Origin: Chthoniobacterales bacterium
Lineage (GTDB): Bacteria; Verrucomicrobiota; Verrucomicrobiia; Chthoniobacterales; DASVRZ01
NCBI GenBank assembly: GCA_039930045.1
Contig: JBDSQB010000010.1
Coordinates: 144,264-208,263 of the forward strand
Reading direction: 5' to 3'
Length of the DNA: 64,000 nucleotides
Made by a program: the position numbers and the translations under genes. Position 1 is the stretch's first letter, and each line of letters opens with the position of its first letter. Below, piece by piece: positions 1,213 to 62,084 of the stretch. The notes beneath the pieces were generated by a model, which saw only the letters and a program-made list of their open reading frames with translations, had not been told where the DNA came from and did no database searches.

Positions 1213-3261
<2,049 letters not shown>

Positions 3262-3283
3262 GCCACTTAAATCATCATCTCTA

Positions 3284-4468
3284 ATGGAAGACTTCGGCGC
3301 GGAATCTATAGACTCTAACTACGGGGCAGAGGACGAATCCGACCTCAATCCGCTGAGGCGAATCGATGTCTCTTCGGTTTCAGTGTCAGGGACAGATTGG
3401 ACTACAGAGACGCTTCTAAGTCAGATGGACAAAGGAAACATTGAACTTAACCCGCGATTTCAGCGCCGGGATGCTTGGGAACAAACCCGTAAGAGCCTCT
3501 TCATCGAATCCCTAATCTTGGGACTTCCCGTCCCTCAGATTGTATTAGCAGAAAGAAGCGATGCTAGAGGAAAATATATTGTGTTGGATGGTAAGCAACG
3601 TCTTCTGTGTTTACGGCAATTTACGGCGACGGACCCAAAATCAGAGTTCCGTTCGTTCAAGTTGAAAGGATTAGAAATTCGGCCTGACCTTGAAGGTAGG
3701 GGCTTTAGCGATTTTCAATCCGATTTTGAATTCCAAGCGGACCTTACCGCTTTCGAAAATCAGTCAATTCGCACGGTAGTAGTGCGAAACTGGCGGTCCG
3801 AGGCCCTTTTATTCCACGTGTTCCTTCGATTAAACAGAGGAAGCAAGCCGCTATCCCCGCAAGAACTTCGTCAAGCTCTCCATCCTGGTCCATTTTTGGA
3901 CTTTGCTGATGAAAGCTCCACTGCCAGTCGGGCAATTCGGGGTATTTTGCGACTTAGTGAACCAGACTTCCGCATGCGCGATGTTGAACTCATTATCCGT
4001 TTCTTCAGTTTCAAACATCGTCTCAGCTATTACCGCGGAAACTTGAAAGACTTCCTTGATCAATCGTGCAAGGAATTCAACGAAAATTGGGCCGCGTTGT
4101 GTGATCGGTTCTCTTCGGAAATGGAAGATTTGGAATCCGCACATGCATTTTCAAAGACGATTTTCGGTCGAGACTTTAACTACAGCAAGTGGACTGGAAG
4201 TGGTTATGAAAGGCGCTTCAACCGTGCGGTTTTCGACGTTGTCATAGCCGCTCTCACGGATCCTTTATTACGCTCCGCGATTGAGGCGGATATCGAGAAA
4301 GCGAAGGTTACGTATCAAGCGCTTTGCGAACAGGATCCTAGGTTTATCGAATCGATCGAGCGGACTACAAAGAGCTTGGAATCGACGCGCTACCGCTTCA
4401 ACTCTTTTTATGGTCGCTTGGCAGAAGCCTACCAAATTGACGTCCAACCGCCGGCAGTAGGTGCTTGA
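3284..4468 (+). CDS. DUF262 (GmrS/ParB-like) domain protein
   Basis: Residues about 40-130 carry the DUF262 hallmarks: 'LNPRFQRRDAWEQ' and 'YIVLDGKQRLLCL', the ParB/Srx-like nucleotide-binding fold found in GmrSD-type and other defence proteins. Length is 394 residues. The frame is open back into thiC, but the ATG at 3284 lies after the thiC stop and is preferred. The base composition is clearly more AT-rich than thiC, suggesting transfer. The HEPN gene follows after 12 bp in the same direction, so the two are probably one operon. The likely role is antiphage or toxin-like, by inference from the family. Confidence 0.8.
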   Translation: MEDFGAESIDSNYGAEDESDLNPLRRIDVSSVSVSGTDWTTETLLSQMDKGNIELNPRFQRRDAWEQTRKSLFIESLILGLPVPQIVLAERSDARGKYIVLDGKQRLLCLRQFTATDPKSEFRSFKLKGLEIRPDLEGRGFSDFQSDFEFQADLTAFENQSIRTVVVRNWRSEALLFHVFLRLNRGSKPLSPQELRQALHPGPFLDFADESSTASRAIRGILRLSEPDFRMRDVELIIRFFSFKHRLSYYRGNLKDFLDQSCKEFNENWAALCDRFSSEMEDLESAHAFSKTIFGRDFNYSKWTGSGYERRFNRAVFDVVIAALTDPLLRSAIEADIEKAKVTYQALCEQDPRFIESIERTTKSLESTRYRFNSFYGRLAEAYQIDVQPPAVGA

Positions 4469-4480
4469 GTTGTTGTGTTG

Positions 4481-5179
4481 ATGAGCCCGGATTACCACGG
4501 CCTTTGTAAGCGCCTGTCTGCGTTGCGACGGCATCTGCTCCCTCAGATCAGTCCAACTGGTGCATACACTGACTCTGAGTCTGACAGAACTCGTGCTTTT
4601 ATTGCGCTATCTCATGCTGAAATTGAGTCTTTTATTGAGATCCGATGCACAAATGTTGCGAACGCGGCAAAGACCAACTGGTTTACGCACCGCCGTGTAA
4701 ACGGAATTATCTTCTCGCTCTACACAATCTGCTATTCCGGCTGGGCGGAGCTACAAGGCGATTTCAGAGATCTTCCAAAACTTGAAACTAAGGCAGACAT
4801 CGAAAAGCGGATAGTGTCGTGTCTAGACCAATATAAGCACGTCATCAGTAGCAACCATGGAATCAGGGAGCCGTATCTACGGAAGTTATTGGTCCCTCTA
4901 TCAATTCGAATGTCGGACCTCGATGCAAACTGGGTGCTTGAGATGACGAATTTTGGTGGGTTGCGAGGGCAGATTGCTCACATGAGTGGTAAGGCGAATC
5001 AGCCTCCCGATCCCGAGGCATTCGATAAACTGATCCGAAAAGTTTTGCTCCCCGGTTTGAAGGCTCTTGATCAGAGACTTTCGAGTCTCGTTGGCGCTGC
5101 CACCCCGCCACTTCAGCGAAATGGCGCGTGGCATCGCATAAAATGTGCGCTGCAATTAATCCGCACCGGCTACCCATAG
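4481..5179 (+). CDS. HEPN-domain RNase-like protein (MAE_28990-like)
   Basis: This 232-residue protein has an N-terminal 'LSHAEIESFIE' helix and a C-terminal RGQIAH (R162-x4-H167), the R-x4-6-H ribonuclease motif of HEPN domains. It begins 12 bp after the DUF262 gene; ATG 4481 was chosen over GTG 4475 and TTG 4478. HEPN proteins of the MAE_28990/MAE_18760 type are commonly encoded beside DUF262 proteins, so a two-gene defence or abortive-infection unit is likely. The composition is AT-richer than the flanks. The subfamily name is from memory of the motif layout and is less certain than the HEPN call. Confidence 0.72.
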   Translation: MSPDYHGLCKRLSALRRHLLPQISPTGAYTDSESDRTRAFIALSHAEIESFIEIRCTNVANAAKTNWFTHRRVNGIIFSLYTICYSGWAELQGDFRDLPKLETKADIEKRIVSCLDQYKHVISSNHGIREPYLRKLLVPLSIRMSDLDANWVLEMTNFGGLRGQIAHMSGKANQPPDPEAFDKLIRKVLLPGLKALDQRLSSLVGAATPPLQRNGAWHRIKCALQLIRTGYP

Positions 5180-5438: not shown

Positions 5439-5969
5439 CTAACGCCAGTCATCGCATTGCAGGAGCGGTTGCGCTCCGGGCAGCCAGGCGTGGGCGGAGG
5501 AATAACGCCAATGCTCCGGCGCGACGACCATGCCGCGCTTGACCGGGTTATTGTGAATGTAATCTAGCTTTTGCAGCATCACTTCGTCCGTGTGGATCGA
5601 CTGCGGATGCGAGCCTTCTTGCCAGATTTGATGCTCGCCCGTTTTATGTGCCGCCCGGTAGTAGCGAAGTTGATTGAGCAGCCACTCGCGATTTTCACGA
5701 CCGAGCTGCTGGATGATTTTCGAGGCAGTGAAGCTTTTGAAATCGCGCAAGACGGCGGAAAGATCGGGCGCGGCGAGAATGGCGTGAAGGTGGTTATCTA
5801 GAATGACCCATGCGTAGATCCGAAGCTCTTTTTGTTTCTGACAAAAAGCGAGAGATTGGACGATGAGATCGCAACAAGCGGCAGAGTTAAAAACGGGGAG
5901 CCATTCGACGATGGTACAGGTAATGAAGTGAGCGCGATTCGGTTCGTTGATCTGGTAACGGCTCCGCAT
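5439..5969 (-). CDS. REP-associated tyrosine transposase (RAYT, IS200-like Y1)
   Basis: The 176-residue product has the HUH motif 'NHLHAI' (His60, His62) and the RAYT signature 'LDYIHNNPVKRGMV', with Tyr137 among the catalytic tyrosine candidates. RAYTs are single-copy Y1-like nucleases that mobilise REP palindromes. The start at 5969 gives the usual N-terminus 'MRSRYQI..PNRAHFITCTI'. Matching hairpins flank the gene on both sides, at 5342-5393 and 6021-6046, which supports a functional RAYT/REP pair. Confidence 0.92.
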   Translation of the reverse strand: MRSRYQINEPNRAHFITCTIVEWLPVFNSAACCDLIVQSLAFCQKQKELRIYAWVILDNHLHAILAAPDLSAVLRDFKSFTASKIIQQLGRENREWLLNQLRYYRAAHKTGEHQIWQEGSHPQSIHTDEVMLQKLDYIHNNPVKRGMVVAPEHWRYSSAHAWLPGAQPLLQCDDWR

Positions 5970-6020
5970 GGCGGATGCTGCTGGAACTAAGTGGAAGAGG
6001 CAAGGCTGCTGTGCAGGGCA

Positions 6021-6046
6021 CGCTAACGAAGCTGGAGCTTGGTAAC
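6021..6046. repeat. REP-like element upstream of the RAYT gene
   Basis: The sequence CACGCTAACGAAGCTGGAG beginning at 6019 repeats the motif at 5334-5352 (one difference at CTAACG versus CTGACG), followed by AGCTTGGTAACGAG as at 5382-5395. It is the upstream partner of the REPs on the far side of the RAYT gene. Confidence 0.65.
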
Positions 6047-6050
6047 GAGG

Positions 6051-6081
6051 AAAGCGCATGGTTCGTTGGACCATGCGCTTT
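6051..6081. terminator. Perfect 12-bp stem-loop with trailing T-rich run
   Basis: AAAGCGCATGGT (6051-6062) pairs perfectly with ACCATGCGCTTT (6070-6081) around a 7-nt loop, followed by CTAGTTTTT. It lies between two minus-strand genes. The U-tract orientation suits a plus-strand terminator, but the symmetrical A/T ends allow either direction; it may also belong to the REP cluster. Confidence 0.5.
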
Positions 6082-6164
6082 CTAGTTTTTCAGTTGTTAC
6101 CCTGAAGGGGCCGAGCCTACTACCAGCGGGCAGGACGAGGACGAAACTCAATCTACTACATCGC

Positions 6165-6875
6165 CTAAGAAGTTGGCTGAGTGGGGTTGGTCGCTGGTTT
6201 CTCCCGCTTCGCGGCGCGGGCGATGTGGCTGGCGCTTTTCCAGGCGCGGAGTTTGTCGGGGTTGCGGGTGTATTTGTTGTTCATGATGGCGTCGAGGTAG
6301 TTGACCTCTTTCATGCCTTCGCGGATGAGACGTCCGACGGCTCCGGTGTTTTCCACGCCTTCGATGTCGTCGCTCTCGACTTCATCTTTCGCACCGTCGA
6401 TGGCGGCACGGTCGTCCATCAAGTTTTGCACAAAGTCGGCGGGGAGTTCGTGGTCGATGAATTTCGCGGCCAGGGCGGTTTTGGCGGCGAGTTCCGCTGG
6501 GGTGTCCACGGCTGGAAACACGGCGGGGGCGAGTTTCTTCAGGTAGGCGTCGGCGGTGGTGATGAGGTCGCGCTGGCTGCCGGTGGCGGGGTAGGGGAAG
6601 TGGTCGGCGAAACCGGGTTCGTCTTGATCGATGGCATCGGCGGTGCGGGCGATGTTTCGGACGTCGAGCCGCAGGCCATCGATGCGGACGGAATGGGCGG
6701 TGACTCCGCCGCCGAGTTGCCCGGCTTTGGCGAGGTCGAGTTCTTTGATGATGCGGGCGATGTTGGCGAAATGGCCGAGGGCTTTGCTGCCGGGGGCGAA
6801 GTCGCCGGAGTTATCGATGCCGAAGGTGGCAGCGCGGCCAAACATGTCGTAGCGGGCGGTTTCTCGATCGTTCAT
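6165..6875 (-). CDS. Uncharacterised protein, paralog 1 of a duplicated family
   Basis: The protein has 236 residues, is soluble and Ala/Asp-rich, starts 'MNDRETARYDMFGR', has a conserved middle ('ELPADFVQNLMDD', 'IDGAKDEVES') and ends in a basic tail. I do not recognise a family. A close paralog is at 62085-62801 (roughly two-thirds identical by eye), and the 128 bp upstream of this gene are also conserved there. A 21-bp-period repeat array ends exactly where that leader begins. The array-leader-gene arrangement suggests a dispersed chromosomal module of unknown function. Confidence 0.85.
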   Translation of the reverse strand: MNDRETARYDMFGRAATFGIDNSGDFAPGSKALGHFANIARIIKELDLAKAGQLGGGVTAHSVRIDGLRLDVRNIARTADAIDQDEPGFADHFPYPATGSQRDLITTADAYLKKLAPAVFPAVDTPAELAAKTALAAKFIDHELPADFVQNLMDDRAAIDGAKDEVESDDIEGVENTGAVGRLIREGMKEVNYLDAIMNNKYTRNPDKLRAWKSASHIARAAKREKPATNPTQPTS

Positions 6876-7003
6876 AAGGATTGGATTTTGAGGTGGTGGT
6901 TGCGGGTTAATGACACGGGAGGGAAGTCTATTGGCGCGTTGAATCCGGAAACAAGCCTAAAAAAGGTGTTTAATGATCACTCACGAGAAAAGTCTCTCCT
7001 GAC
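6876..7003 (-). promoter_or_regulatory. Conserved leader of paralog 1
   Basis: Read on the minus strand, this non-coding stretch runs from GTCAGGAGAG through GTGAGTGATCATTAAA and AACGCGCCAATAGACTT to ACCACCTCAAAATCC just before the ATG. The same blocks, in the same order, precede paralog 2 (61954-62084). Conservation comparable to the coding region implies a shared promoter, a regulatory RNA leader or recent duplication. Confidence 0.65.
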
Positions 7004-7336
7004 ACGGGCGAAGGCTCGATTGACACGGGAAATGGCCGTTTGATACACGCGCAGCCTCGATTGACACCGGAAATGGCTGATTTTGCACCGGTTCAGGCGG
7101 ATGTGACACGCGTTTAGGGTCGATTTGCACGCGAACATGGGCGGCTTACACCGGAAAATGGGGAGCTCGCACACGAAAATGGGAGTCGTACACACGTTCA
7201 GGCCGTGCTGGCACAGGCGAACGCCGGATTTGCAGACGAAAACGCCGGGCACGCACTGACGTAGAGGCGGTTGTCACGCGGAAATGTGGGGTTTACACAG
7301 GCGAATCTGGGATGTGCACGGAAAAATGCCGTTCTG
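7000..7336 (-). repeat. Degenerate 21-bp-period repeat array 1
   Basis: About 15-16 diverged units of 20-22 bp, each with a TGNCACG/TTGCACG core on the plus strand (starts near 7000, 7021, 7042, 7062, 7083, 7104, 7125, 7146). On the minus strand the best-kept unit reads CGTGTCAATCGAGCCTTCG, the same word as in array 2 (19320-19505). Because 21 bp is seven codons, an overlapping frame shows Cys every seventh residue; this looks like a by-product, not a gene. It occupies the gap between paralog 1's leader and the ArsR promoter. Confidence 0.75.
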
Positions 7337-7351
7337 AAGCCGACATAGAGT

Positions 7352-19251: not shown

Positions 19252-19319
19252 GGCTGGGACGTTAAGGGAAAAATCCCGCTGCGCCATCCAGAAAGCGGCT
19301 CCCTGTTCGTCGCGCCTGG

Positions 19320-19505
19320 GGACGTGCGAGCGCAGCCTTCGGACGTGTCAATCGAGGCTTGGAACGTGCGAACTGAGCCTTGCAACGTGTCAATTCACCC
19401 TTTTTCCGTGCGAGAGGCGCCTTCGAGCGTGTCAATCGAGCCTTGGAACGTGCAAATCGGCCATAAACCGTGTCAAACGCCCCTTCGAGCGTGTCATGTA
19501 TCCCG
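19320..19505 (+). repeat. Degenerate 21-bp-period repeat array 2
   Basis: About nine units of 20-21 bp start near 19320, 19341, 19362, 19383, 19404, 19425, 19446, 19467 and 19487. The core word CGTGTCAATCGAGCCT matches array 1 read on the opposite strand; units tend to alternate CGTGCGA and CGTGTCA. The array lies just left of the prophage, in the same orientation as paralog 2 on the prophage's far side. It fills most of the 274-bp gap after the RibD-like gene. Confidence 0.75.
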
Positions 19506-30278: not shown

Positions 30279-32972
30279 TTATTCGATATTGGCCACGAAA
30301 CGGACCAGGCAAAAGTTGCCGCTGTAAACGCGCACGAATTCGTAGTAATCGGTCGCATTGTTGGCGGTCGATTGTGTGATGCTAAAGCCGGTCGTTTTGT
30401 AGCCGTTACCGCTCGGGAAGCTGATCGTTGCCGCCGCCCCGCTCGCGGGTTGTTTAACGAAAAACTTGATCGTATAGCCTTCCCCGCCAAATCCGGCGTG
30501 TGGTGCGGCCATTGTTCTGGCAGACCCGGCAGCCAGTTGGACTTTCATCACGTTCGAGTTGGAATCCGGCTGGGTGATGGTGGCGGCATCGGTGAGTGCG
30601 GTGACGGCGGCTGGCTGGCCGATGAAGTAAAGGCCAGAAGTGGCAACGCCTTGGGCGGCGGTGAGATTTTGCGGCCCCCACGTCATGTTCACCCCGTTCC
30701 AAGTCAGCGCCATCACCGGGCTGGAGGCGGAGTAACCACCGGGCTGGGTGAAGTTAATGAAGCGATAGCTAAAAGCGTTGGCGTCGGTGAGTTGGTTCAC
30801 GGCCAATCCGCCGTCGCCAACCGCTTGGAGCGCCAGCGTTTTGAGGTTGGTGCCGCCGTCGCTTTTCTTGATGCGCAGACCCTTGGACGGCGTGCCACCG
30901 CCGTCGTTGTAAATCGTCTGCGAGGTGCCATCGTCAAATGTATTGGAGACGTTGGTTTTCGCGGTGAAGGCCTGCCCCGCCTTGTTGGCCAGCTCCTCCG
31001 AGGTGGCGAGATTCAGGAGTTGCAGACCGAAAAAGGTCGGCGAATAGCCTTGGAGACTGACGGCATCCAGCAGGCCAGTCACAGCGTTGGAGTTGGCGGT
31101 CTTAATCAGGTCTGCCGAGTTGGCCGGTGTGGTGTCGGATGCAACCCAAGTGCTGTAAATCCTGACTTTTTCGGTGGCGGGAAGGACGTTGGCATACACC
31201 TCGCAAGTGGTGATCTTCATCGTTCCTGCGGCGAATAAGTCCGGGATGCCCCAGCGTTGATAAATCGAGTGGGTGCCGGTGCCAGAGGTTGTGATGTCAA
31301 TGGCCGAGCCGCCGCTCGTGGCGGAAACTTTTAATGCAGTGGAGGTGAGGCCGCTGGCGATGACAAAATAATCCGTGCCTGCGACCAGCGGCGACGGCAG
31401 GGTGCCGGTCGTGGTGAAGCGGACCATTTGCCCGGCACTCAGTCCGTGCGTGGTGCTCACGGTCGCCAGATCGGTGCCTGTGTTAACCGTCACGGTGCCC
31501 TTTAGGTTGCTGTCCGTGGCCGATAAAGAGGTGAGCGTGGTGCCGGGCGCGCCCGCACGAATGGTGATGGTGTCGTTCGCGACAACCGTCTGGCTCATCT
31601 CCACTTCAAAAACCCAGTGCGTGCCGTCGGTGGGCACCGTGATCGCCTGAGACGCGAGAGTCTGTAATTGCGCCGGTCCGCCGCCGACGGTGGTAATTTC
31701 AATCTTCATGGCCGTGCTTGCCAGGGAGCAGTGGACGAGGTTGGCCAACGACGTGGAGGGTTGTAGAATGAGCGTGTTCGACCCGCCAACGACACCGGTG
31801 GACTTCAAAAAGGCGACTTCATTTCCCCAGCGCTTGGGCACGACGCTGTGAGTCTGGTTCAGATACAAGGCGCAGGCGCTGGCCACGGTGGAGTTCCAGA
31901 GAGAGTCCGTGAAACTCACATAACCGCCGAGATTGGGCGCGGTTTCTCCATTGCCACCGGTGCCGTAAGTGACGTTCCAAGTCGGCCCGAGATTCGGCGT
32001 GGTGCCGTGGACGGTGGAAGCAACGGCGTGCGAGGCAAAAAGGTCGGAGGCGATGACGTTGGCATTGGTGACGCCACGTTTCACAGTCACGGTGCCATCC
32101 GCTAACACGCCGCCCGTTCCGAGGACGGGAATCGTGCCGCTGGTAGTGCCGGTGTTTACTCCAGCAGCGGTGCCCCGGTCGGAGATGGTGTTGAGAAGCT
32201 GAGTGCCGGTGTGATTGGCGCGGTTGAGGAGAGTGGCATCGCTGCTGTTAGCAGTGGCTCCGGTGGCGATGCCCGTGAGTTTCGTCCGTTCGGTAGCGAG
32301 AAAGGCTTTGTTCGTGGTGCCGTCCGTGAGGGTGTCCGCCGACTGGGTTCCGGTGTGGTTGGAGCGGTTGAGCAGAGTGGCATCGCTGCTGTTGGCGGTT
32401 GCACCCGTGGCGATGCCCGCGAGTTTCGTCCGTTCGGTAGCGAGGAACGCCTTGTTTGTGGTGCCGTCTGTCAAAGTGTCGGCAGACTGTGTTCCGGTGT
32501 GGTTGGAACGCTGCACGGCGGCGGCTTGGGCGGCGTTGGCCTTGGTGGTGGCGTCGGTCGCTGCGGCGGTGGCGACGGCGCTGTTAGCCGTCGCCTGTGC
32601 TGTGGAGACTGGCTTATTGGCATCGCTGGTGTTATCGACGTTGCCCAGCCCGACAGTCGATTTGGTGAGCCCTAGGGTGAAGCCCGAGAGATCGAGCGTG
32701 CCGGTGCCACCGGTTAAGAAGTTGCGAATCGCGGTAGCCGGGCTGGCGGCGATGGTGTCCAGATCGGCGTCCCATGCCTGGATGTTGCTGCCAATGGCCA
32801 GCCCCAGCGCGCTGCGGACGGTGGATTTATTGGTTACACCCGAGAGATCGAGGGTGAGGTTGAAACTGGTCGCGCCATTGAAGACGTTGGCCTCGGGATG
32901 TGTGACGGTGACGGCACTCTGGCCGGTGTGAAGCGATAGCGCGAAGAGGGCGAGGATGAGGAGTTTTTTCAT
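30279..32972 (-). CDS. Tail fibre with signal peptide and 44-residue repeats
   Basis: The 897-residue protein begins with a textbook Sec signal 'MKKLLILALFALSLHTGQSA', odd for a virion protein. Residues about 155-270 carry three near-identical repeats containing 'SNHTGTQSADTL', 'NKAFLATERTKL' and 'GATANSSDATLLN', a fibre-type repeat common in phages. The rest is Thr/Ser/Gly-rich beta sequence. Start 32972 was chosen over an upstream in-frame ATG. It is embedded among head-tail genes, ahead of the tail-completion gene. Confidence 0.75.
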   Translation of the reverse strand: MKKLLILALFALSLHTGQSAVTVTHPEANVFNGATSFNLTLDLSGVTNKSTVRSALGLAIGSNIQAWDADLDTIAASPATAIRNFLTGGTGTLDLSGFTLGLTKSTVGLGNVDNTSDANKPVSTAQATANSAVATAAATDATTKANAAQAAAVQRSNHTGTQSADTLTDGTTNKAFLATERTKLAGIATGATANSSDATLLNRSNHTGTQSADTLTDGTTNKAFLATERTKLTGIATGATANSSDATLLNRANHTGTQLLNTISDRGTAAGVNTGTTSGTIPVLGTGGVLADGTVTVKRGVTNANVIASDLFASHAVASTVHGTTPNLGPTWNVTYGTGGNGETAPNLGGYVSFTDSLWNSTVASACALYLNQTHSVVPKRWGNEVAFLKSTGVVGGSNTLILQPSTSLANLVHCSLASTAMKIEITTVGGGPAQLQTLASQAITVPTDGTHWVFEVEMSQTVVANDTITIRAGAPGTTLTSLSATDSNLKGTVTVNTGTDLATVSTTHGLSAGQMVRFTTTGTLPSPLVAGTDYFVIASGLTSTALKVSATSGGSAIDITTSGTGTHSIYQRWGIPDLFAAGTMKITTCEVYANVLPATEKVRIYSTWVASDTTPANSADLIKTANSNAVTGLLDAVSLQGYSPTFFGLQLLNLATSEELANKAGQAFTAKTNVSNTFDDGTSQTIYNDGGGTPSKGLRIKKSDGGTNLKTLALQAVGDGGLAVNQLTDANAFSYRFINFTQPGGYSASSPVMALTWNGVNMTWGPQNLTAAQGVATSGLYFIGQPAAVTALTDAATITQPDSNSNVMKVQLAAGSARTMAAPHAGFGGEGYTIKFFVKQPASGAAATISFPSGNGYKTTGFSITQSTANNATDYYEFVRVYSGNFCLVRFVANIE

Positions 32973-53223: not shown

Positions 53224-54315
53224 ATGAAAGAAACCATCACCGAGGAACAGCCTCCCGAACTCCAGCCGATGCCGGACATTATCGCCAAGCTCATCGCCGA
53301 GCAGGGCGACCGCTCCGACAGCGTCTTCTGCCGCGAATACAATTTCGGCTACGCCGACACCACCTGGAGCCGCGTGCGGCGCTGGGTGGATGCCGAGTCC
53401 GTTCTCACCCGCGACATCACCAAGAAAGGCGAGAACAAAGAAGTCATCGTGCTGCACCGCAAAGGCGAGCGCAACCCGAACTACGGCCAGCTTTTTTACC
53501 AGGGCAGCATTAGCGAAGTGCTGAATGAATGCGAGAGCATGTATCGCCGCATCCAGGAGCGCAAAGCGCTGGCCTCGAAGGTTCGCCAGGGAACGGTGTT
53601 CATCACCTTCCCTCACTTCCAGACCTTGCTGGATCGCGTCACCATCCTTCACGGCAGCGAGACGCAAAACCGGCTGCTGGTGTATCTCGCCGATTCGGGC
53701 GGCGGCAAGACAGCTTTCCTGCGCGAGGCCGCAGCCCGCACCGGCGGACTCTTTATCGAGGCGCGGGAATCCTGGCGGGATAGTTATTTTTCGGCCTGCG
53801 TGGATCTGTGCCGAGCCACGGGCATCACGGAAAACCTGCCCAGCAGCGGCGCGGCGGAAAAGGCGTTGATCGAGATTTTGAAGGTTCGCAAAACGGTCCT
53901 TCTCATCGACGAGGGCGAGTATTTCGGGCCGAAATCGATCAACCTCATCAAGCTGATCCTGAACCAGACGCCGACCGTCGTCATCATCTGCGCCATCCCG
54001 GAATTGTGGAACCGCATCAAGCGCATTGCCTGGATGGAGAGCCTGCAAATCGTCCGGCGCACCGACCACGTCGAGACGCTCACGAAGATCCACCCCGCAG
54101 ACGTGCAGAAGTTTATGGACCAGCGCGAGTTGAATCTGAATGGCAGCAGCGAAGCGAGCTGCAAGCTCATTGCCCGGCACGCCAATGAGTTTGGCCGCTA
54201 CGACCTCATCACCCGCGTGGCAGATCGCCTCGGCATGGAGGAACCGCAGCACCTCAGCGACGTGGAAAGCACCGTGCTGCAAGTCAAGGCCATGATGGGA
54301 TTCACCGTTAGATAG
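53224..54315 (+). CDS. MuB-like AAA+ transposition ATPase
   Basis: The 363-residue AAA+ protein has Walker A 'LADSGGGKTAF' (about 155-165) and Walker B 'TVLLIDEGEYF' (about 225). The N-terminal segment includes 'CREYNFGYADTTWSRVRRWV', a MuB/HTH-like helix. MuB binds target DNA and activates the transposase; the gene lies one place downstream of the transposase as in Mu. Confidence 0.85.
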   Translation: MKETITEEQPPELQPMPDIIAKLIAEQGDRSDSVFCREYNFGYADTTWSRVRRWVDAESVLTRDITKKGENKEVIVLHRKGERNPNYGQLFYQGSISEVLNECESMYRRIQERKALASKVRQGTVFITFPHFQTLLDRVTILHGSETQNRLLVYLADSGGGKTAFLREAAARTGGLFIEARESWRDSYFSACVDLCRATGITENLPSSGAAEKALIEILKVRKTVLLIDEGEYFGPKSINLIKLILNQTPTVVIICAIPELWNRIKRIAWMESLQIVRRTDHVETLTKIHPADVQKFMDQRELNLNGSSEASCKLIARHANEFGRYDLITRVADRLGMEEPQHLSDVESTVLQVKAMMGFTVR

Positions 54316-61953: not shown

Positions 61954-62084
61954 GTCAGGAGAGTCTTTTCGCGTGAGTGATCATTAAAAACCTTTTTAAG
62001 CCTTGTTTTTGGGTTCAACGCGCCAATAGACTTCGCTCCCGTCCATCATTCACCCGCAACCACCACCTCAAAATCCACATCACT
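61954..62084 (+). promoter_or_regulatory. Conserved leader of paralog 2
   Basis: It runs from GTCAGGAGAGTC through GTGAGTGATCATTAAA and AACGCGCCAATAGACTT to ACCACCTCAAAATCCACA before the ATG. It aligns over its whole length with the leader of paralog 1 (6876-7003, minus). The 61823-61953 stretch before it has a loose ~10-bp TTCGGC/TTCCGG rhythm (about 61886-61925) and no gene. Confidence 0.65.

Follow-up and report, generated by a model that had tools for sequence, protein, structure and literature searches.

Several unrelated families of small, mostly helical proteins adjoin their own 21-bp repeat arrays in soil and sludge bacteria

Introduction

What is a degenerate array of 21-bp repeats doing immediately ahead of a gene of no recognisable family, with related sequence elsewhere in the same stretch of a Chthoniobacterales genome? 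The question was raised by an earlier note on the 64,000-nucleotide stretch analysed here (the window), which proposed, from the sequence alone, that an array, a conserved non-coding leader and a 236-residue protein (P236) make up a functional unit. The answer has proved both narrower and broader than that proposal. Array and gene are strongly supported as a unit, since 21/22-bp arrays lie beside most P236 homologues in Verrucomicrobiota, Acidobacteria and Accumulibacter and beside three further gene families, whereas the leader finds no support as an essential element. Several unrelated families of small, mostly helical proteins in soil and sludge bacteria each adjoin a 21-bp array of their own.

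Two modules in the window, one interrupted by a prophage

The first module runs without a gap along the minus strand, from array 1 (6986-7341) through a 128-bp leader (6876-7003) into the P236 gene (6165-6875; 236 codons, with an all-helical product in the AlphaFold model), and the last array unit extends into the beginning of the leader. Array 1 comprises 17 degenerate units of about 21 bp with the consensus CGTGTCAATCGAGCCTTCGAC, delineated by TRF, a unit table and a chain score that reached 251, where Markov-shuffled sequence of 64 kb gave no more than 15.4. When both window arrays are tabulated, the core G, T and G are kept in 22/23, 23/23 and 23/23 full-length units, respectively. The three elements are thus present and contiguous, as the earlier note had it.

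The recurrence it reported, of leader and protein at 61.95-62.8 kb and of the array type at 19.3 kb, is equally sound. Array 2 (19302-19489, plus strand) has nine units of 21 bp that match the array 1 unit and alternate between GTGCGAG and GTGTCAA, giving a 42-bp higher order; leader 2 (131 bp, 61954-62084) and the second P236 gene (62085-62801, 238 aa) follow on the same strand. Between the two copies, DNA identity is 90% for the leader and 83% for the coding sequence, and the proteins share 76% of their amino acids. These distant pieces are not separate partial copies, however, but two halves of one module. Host sequence flanking array 2 continues to 19496, where a 42.5-kb Mu-like transposable prophage begins (19497-61953), encoding on the plus strand a MuA-like transposase (50636-52444; phrog_310, E 5.9e-9) and a MuB-like DNA transposition protein (53224-54315; phrog_296, E 7.3e-12). 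Its ends read TGTATC at 19497 and GGAACA up to 61953, in the TG...CA form, with a 4-bp GTCA repeat on the flanks. Joined in silico, the flanks restore an uninterrupted array-leader-gene sequence, 866 bp of which can be aligned with copy 1 at 83%. On the strength of the MuA and MuB genes, the prophage ends and this alignment, we count two modules in the window, the second of which the prophage interrupts. The prophage itself contains a 144-bp tandem duplication (86% match) at 32199-32507.

The leader fares less well. Leader 1 has a TTGTTT-18-TAGACT that resembles a promoter, 49 bp ahead of the ATG, with a score no better than shuffled sequence, and a promoter scan of the leaders gave a mean score hardly above shuffled and on the whole no better, leaving the promoter positions suggestive. 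Structured RNA was considered and rejected: neither leader has a significant fold (z -0.2 and -1.0), and Rfam matches were only below the gathering threshold, at 6033-6098, outside the leader. By similarity, the leader was undetectable outside the source genome. Accumulibacter has no array-leader-gene order, its arrays being at the opposite end of the gene. The idea of a separately conserved, essential leader accordingly finds no support, and the leader is probably a promoter plus 5' UTR.

Directly downstream of copy 1 lies a gene for a REP-associated tyrosine transposase, or RAYT (5439-6074, minus strand; NCBIfam NF047646, E 4.5e-32). RAYT genes are found in this position beside P236-type genes in two further loci (L167 12081-12488 and L082 8311-8847), and about 0.74 Mb of the source genome sampled outside the window contained a single RAYT, which is one of these two. 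RAYT is an occasional neighbour of P236, not a constant part of the module. Beyond it, at 3227-5179, a GmrSD_N protein (a strong PADLOC NsnA match, E 1.2e-64) is followed by a HEPN_RiboL-PSP-like protein, a pair that is a candidate two-gene defence system.

P236 and the arrays beside its homologues

Close copies of P236 in the 3.5-Mb source genome are limited to the two in the window. Relatives are patchy, occurring in 14/384 genomes of the class and 10/213 of the order (one of them a Chthoniobacteraceae genome, G363, on the contig of L053); a profile search of the whole phylum, for which the first-look filter was probably limiting, turned up few genomes. Further relatives lie in records titled Accumulibacter, Pyrinomonadaceae/Acidobacteria, Verrucomicrobiota and one Akkermansia, with none in the viral contigs scanned and no match in plasmids. 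P236 itself matches nothing in Pfam, PHROG, NCBIfam, PADLOC or the PDB. Its AlphaFold model (pLDDT 83, pTM 0.48) is all-helical, with confident helices and uncertain packing. Foldseek returned no significant match in the PDB or among viral models, and the VIA-align rows are generic helical bundles. With packing uncertain and no specific structural match, the model neither supports nor excludes DNA binding.

The gene's regular companion is the array. Upstream of P236 homologues, the best repeat lag was 21 or 22, and significant, in 20/27 cases; among lags 10-40, no other was significant. Unit refinement was confined to lags 20-22, a restriction that did not apply to the period test itself. Homologues of P236, like those of the PFN family described below, were collected by protein similarity alone, with arrays playing no part, so the association is not circular; the counts nonetheless come from homologues that share descent and are not independent. 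Lag 21 appeared in 20/306 control 1-kb tiles, which, with about two exceptions, contained the same arrays again. In Accumulibacter, 5/6 loci have a lag-21 array downstream of P236, and the remaining locus, L050, shows a period of 42 bp. Units of different loci look unrelated, as illustrated by GCGCACGTGCATTTTATCGTA in L009, AAAAACAAGATAGAGATGAGC in L060 and GTTGCGGGGCGTGAGAATTCA in L058.

Exceptions occur in both directions. Several 21-bp arrays stand without such a gene, and L031, L034 and truncated P236 copies have no array nearby. The earlier note had named copies lacking both the leader and any nearby array as grounds for abandoning its unit; this applies only in part, for a few copies lack an array, others have one at a distance, and several lack the leader, but such copies are a minority. 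In L031 (1501-2739), in one genome, the P236 domain is fused to a methyltransferase domain (Methyltransf_24).

Position bears directly on the first alternative, in which a host regulator binds phased sites upstream of a promoter and the repeat number tunes expression. In most Verrucomicrobiota and Acidobacteria loci the array lies 70-480 bp before the P236 start codon, as a regulatory element would, and its sites fall on one helix face; this placement counts against pairing of the array with the protein. The Accumulibacter array, by contrast, sits 0.1-0.3 kb behind the P236 stop codon, on the other strand, with its core still pointing gene-ward, and for this reason the array as a promoter element only is rejected. 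Arrays without a gene, promoter predictions on the whole no better than shuffled, and the separate specificity that a host regulator would need for each paralogue speak against the broader cis-regulatory explanation, which we consider unlikely. In a further three loci (L052, L081 and L082) an array is found 4.4-5.1 kb upstream of P236 and other genes intervene, which recalls the prophage-split module. One of these genes, in L052 (1945-4827), encodes 960 aa and was judged restriction-modification-like by eye.

Further array-linked families and their units

A model of the window array found two further arrays in the source genome, one of which precedes a gene (P0001) unrelated to P236. Its 209-aa product, PFN, has an FN3-like C-terminal part, with fn3 just below the Pfam cut-off, and an N-terminal part that is helical as judged by reading. 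PFN copies have a 21/22-bp array upstream in 42/47 cases, with one exception at another lag. Stretches totalling 805 kb of the source genome yielded 13 lag-21 arrays, of which two or three are coding repeats, but no arrays at the neighbouring non-triplet lags 14, 16, 17, 19, 20, 22 or 23. The neighbours of sampled lag-21 arrays include F1b, a divergent P236 subfamily, the PQLLE-like F3 and a fourth family, F4. These three were first noticed beside arrays, and only their homologues elsewhere count as a test: arrays accompany 6/11 for F1b, 2/3 for F3 and 5/5 for F4.

Several array neighbourhoods in these searches contain other genes of note. An MmeI-like restriction-modification gene (L158 7827-11258, contig C3 of the source genome, G000) adjoins an orphan 21-bp array, and the unit of this array matches that of a PFN array some 16 kb distant. 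Across from an F1b array is a metallophosphoesterase-STAND NTPase protein (L167 13849-17043; PADLOC PDC-S60, E 3e-115). On contig C21 of G000, a young orphan array of 11 nearly identical units (L078 6264-6494) abuts the 3' end of a gene for an ECF sigma factor of the DUF6596 type.

Most unit sequences are specific to a single locus, and close paralogues share theirs. For instance, one genome with 13 PFN copies has a private unit for each, and within the source genome the two P236 arrays match each other (z 6.9), as do two F1b arrays (z 7.8). Gene-less arrays can also match gene-linked ones: C21 resembles P236 array 2, and C3:121 kb resembles a PFN array (z 8.1 each). Such sharing would be expected of a trans-acting reader of the unit, and recent array duplication would give it as well.

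Pitch, phasing and strandedness of the arrays

Of 62 arrays whose sequences are unrelated, 54 repeat every 21 bp and 8 every 22 bp, and arrays contain 5-22 units (median 13). AA/TT power at 10.5 bp is 0.266 vs 0.130 for P236 and 0.203 vs 0.129 for PFN, with p=0.003 for each family, the floor of 300 permutations. Curved DNA, or DNA bound on one face, classically shows this pairing of a fixed two-turn pitch with AA/TT phasing at half the pitch. P236 arrays also have a common core, CGTGCnA, found by leave-one-out motif search over 27 arrays. In the held-out array it is enriched on the gene-ward strand (Fisher p 6.5e-11) and not on the opposite strand (p 0.16); the column-permutation nulls ignore dinucleotide bias, and this strand contrast is the safer result. 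A pitch of seven codons might suggest coding repeats, an explanation rejected because 18/60 family-linked arrays are closed in all six frames.

Could the arrays instead act as RNA? A mechanism like that of type III toxin-antitoxin (TA) systems would have the array transcribed and cut into 21-nt RNAs that restrain the neighbouring protein, with the need for orthogonality explaining why paralogues have private units. Direct repeats upstream of a small-protein gene fit this picture, and PFN units do tend to self-complementarity (mean z -1.96; 17/30 in the top 3 of 60). Those of P236 do not (mean z +0.17) and are unstructured, on which ground RNA hairpins are rejected for P236 arrays. The PFN stems give hairpins no support either, lacking a G-U excess (74 G-U vs 87 A-C mismatches) and covariation (36 compensatory changes vs 41 expected). 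Because G-U and A-C mismatches are similar in number and compensatory changes are at chance level, the PFN symmetry is more suggestive of dyad sites in DNA than of stems in RNA. A terminator in the array-gene gap exceeded the 5% null in only 2/20 P236 and 5/29 PFN cases, the Accumulibacter array is downstream and antisense, there is no match to a ToxN-like family, and the period stays at two turns of DNA, with AA/TT steps phased at 10.5 bp. Taken together, we regard restraint by array RNA as quite improbable.

What the arrays may do

A third alternative is that the arrays are mobile-element ends or insertion hotspots, serving as a transposase or recombinase platform at whose edge genes are gained and lost. 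The Mu-like prophage at the array edge of module 2 invites this explanation, as do the genes, including the restriction-modification-like one, between array and P236 in L052, L081 and L082, the loss of homology near the outer array edge in L044/L047 and L045/L046, and the RAYT beside P236 in three loci. Mu-type phages show little insertion sequence preference, however; no recombinase is a constant neighbour, none of the four array-linked families are recombinases, and inverted copies at two ends are absent. We think a hotspot very doubtful. Neutral minisatellites, born of replication slippage and hitchhiking with these genes, would account for the near-identical units of L009 and L151 as recent expansions, but are highly improbable given a gene-family link, a single pitch, an oriented core and 10.5-bp phasing that slippage would not be expected to produce.

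The reading that we favour, at slightly worse than an even chance, is a DNA-level protein-array pair, in which the protein encoded next to the helically phased array, or else a partner, would bind it. It is suggested by what is observed of the arrays: a link to four families, fixed pitch and phasing, an oriented core in P236, non-coding sequence, and orphan arrays that share units with gene-linked ones. That no DNA-binding domain is recognised in P236 counts against it. With a spacing of two B-DNA turns, each unit would lie on the same helix face, and the stretch would be bendable or curved in phase. The array could then provide a platform for cooperative binding or wrapping by the product of the neighbouring gene, or by a lineage-matched partner. 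A lineage-specific unit would allow each protein to address its own array along with orphan arrays of matching unit elsewhere, and the compact nucleoprotein body that we infer would result might mark or organise its locus. Candidate purposes, as alternatives, are regulation, nucleoid organisation, and maintenance or defence of a mobile segment.

To our reading of open-licence PMC papers, 21-bp tandem arrays in these bacteria have no description there, nor has a variable unit at fixed spacing, and a description elsewhere is possible. As a tentative proposal, these may be a widespread, undescribed class of helically phased arrays, each with its own code and its own partner from one of several families of helical proteins; that partner would read the array together with its orphan copies and form local, addressable nucleoprotein marks on chromosomes of at least three phyla. 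Multi-copy families of uncharacterised proteins, with up to 13 PFN matches per genome, share a DNA feature hidden from annotation, and the arrays offer a first handle on the function of these families by predicting their DNA targets. They suggest that soil and sludge bacteria organise, regulate or mobilise their DNA locus by locus at a level so far unrecognised. If binding were confirmed, private units at a fixed pitch would be a natural set of orthogonal protein-DNA pairs.

Comparison with known systems

Among known systems, CRISPR is readily distinguished: the units here are head-to-tail, degenerate and 21 bp long, without spacers, and no cas genes were among the neighbouring window genes scanned. 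REP/RAYT (REPIN) systems likewise combine repeats and a gene family in one genome, and RAYT does neighbour P236 on occasion, but P236 units are non-palindromic and follow one another in tandem with a fixed pitch, and a RAYT is missing from most loci. The PQLLE family (NCBIfam NF052641) is matched weakly by F3 (E 2.6e-11, below the curated cut-off) and not by P236 or PFN; the open-licence PMC papers searched do not mention it.

Type III TA systems (ToxIN, CptIN and TenpIN) have, as a defining feature, a terminator between the repeats and the gene (PMC5086642). Tandem direct repeats upstream of a small-protein gene are common to both, with the array downstream in Accumulibacter. Here, on the other hand, no terminator is consistent and no RNA-stem signature is present, and the array is sometimes downstream and antisense. 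The P236 model, for its part, is all-helical, with no sequence family match and an unspecific fold search.

A resemblance in geometry may be drawn with iterons and centromere arrays. The 17-22-bp iterons of plasmid Rep proteins and the centromere arrays of parC/ParR and sopC/SopB are tandem repeats close to two helical turns; they lie next to the gene for their own binding protein, which occupies them cooperatively on one face. The arrays described here differ in being chromosomal, with many different arrays per genome, and in having no replication or partition ATPase gene alongside. P236 has no Rep or ParB family match, and no replication-initiator or partition domain was found in it or in the other array-linked families. 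Here the direct repeats have a pitch of 21-22 bp and 10.5-bp phasing and lie beside a gene; binding by its product, as in iterons and centromeres, would complete the parallel.
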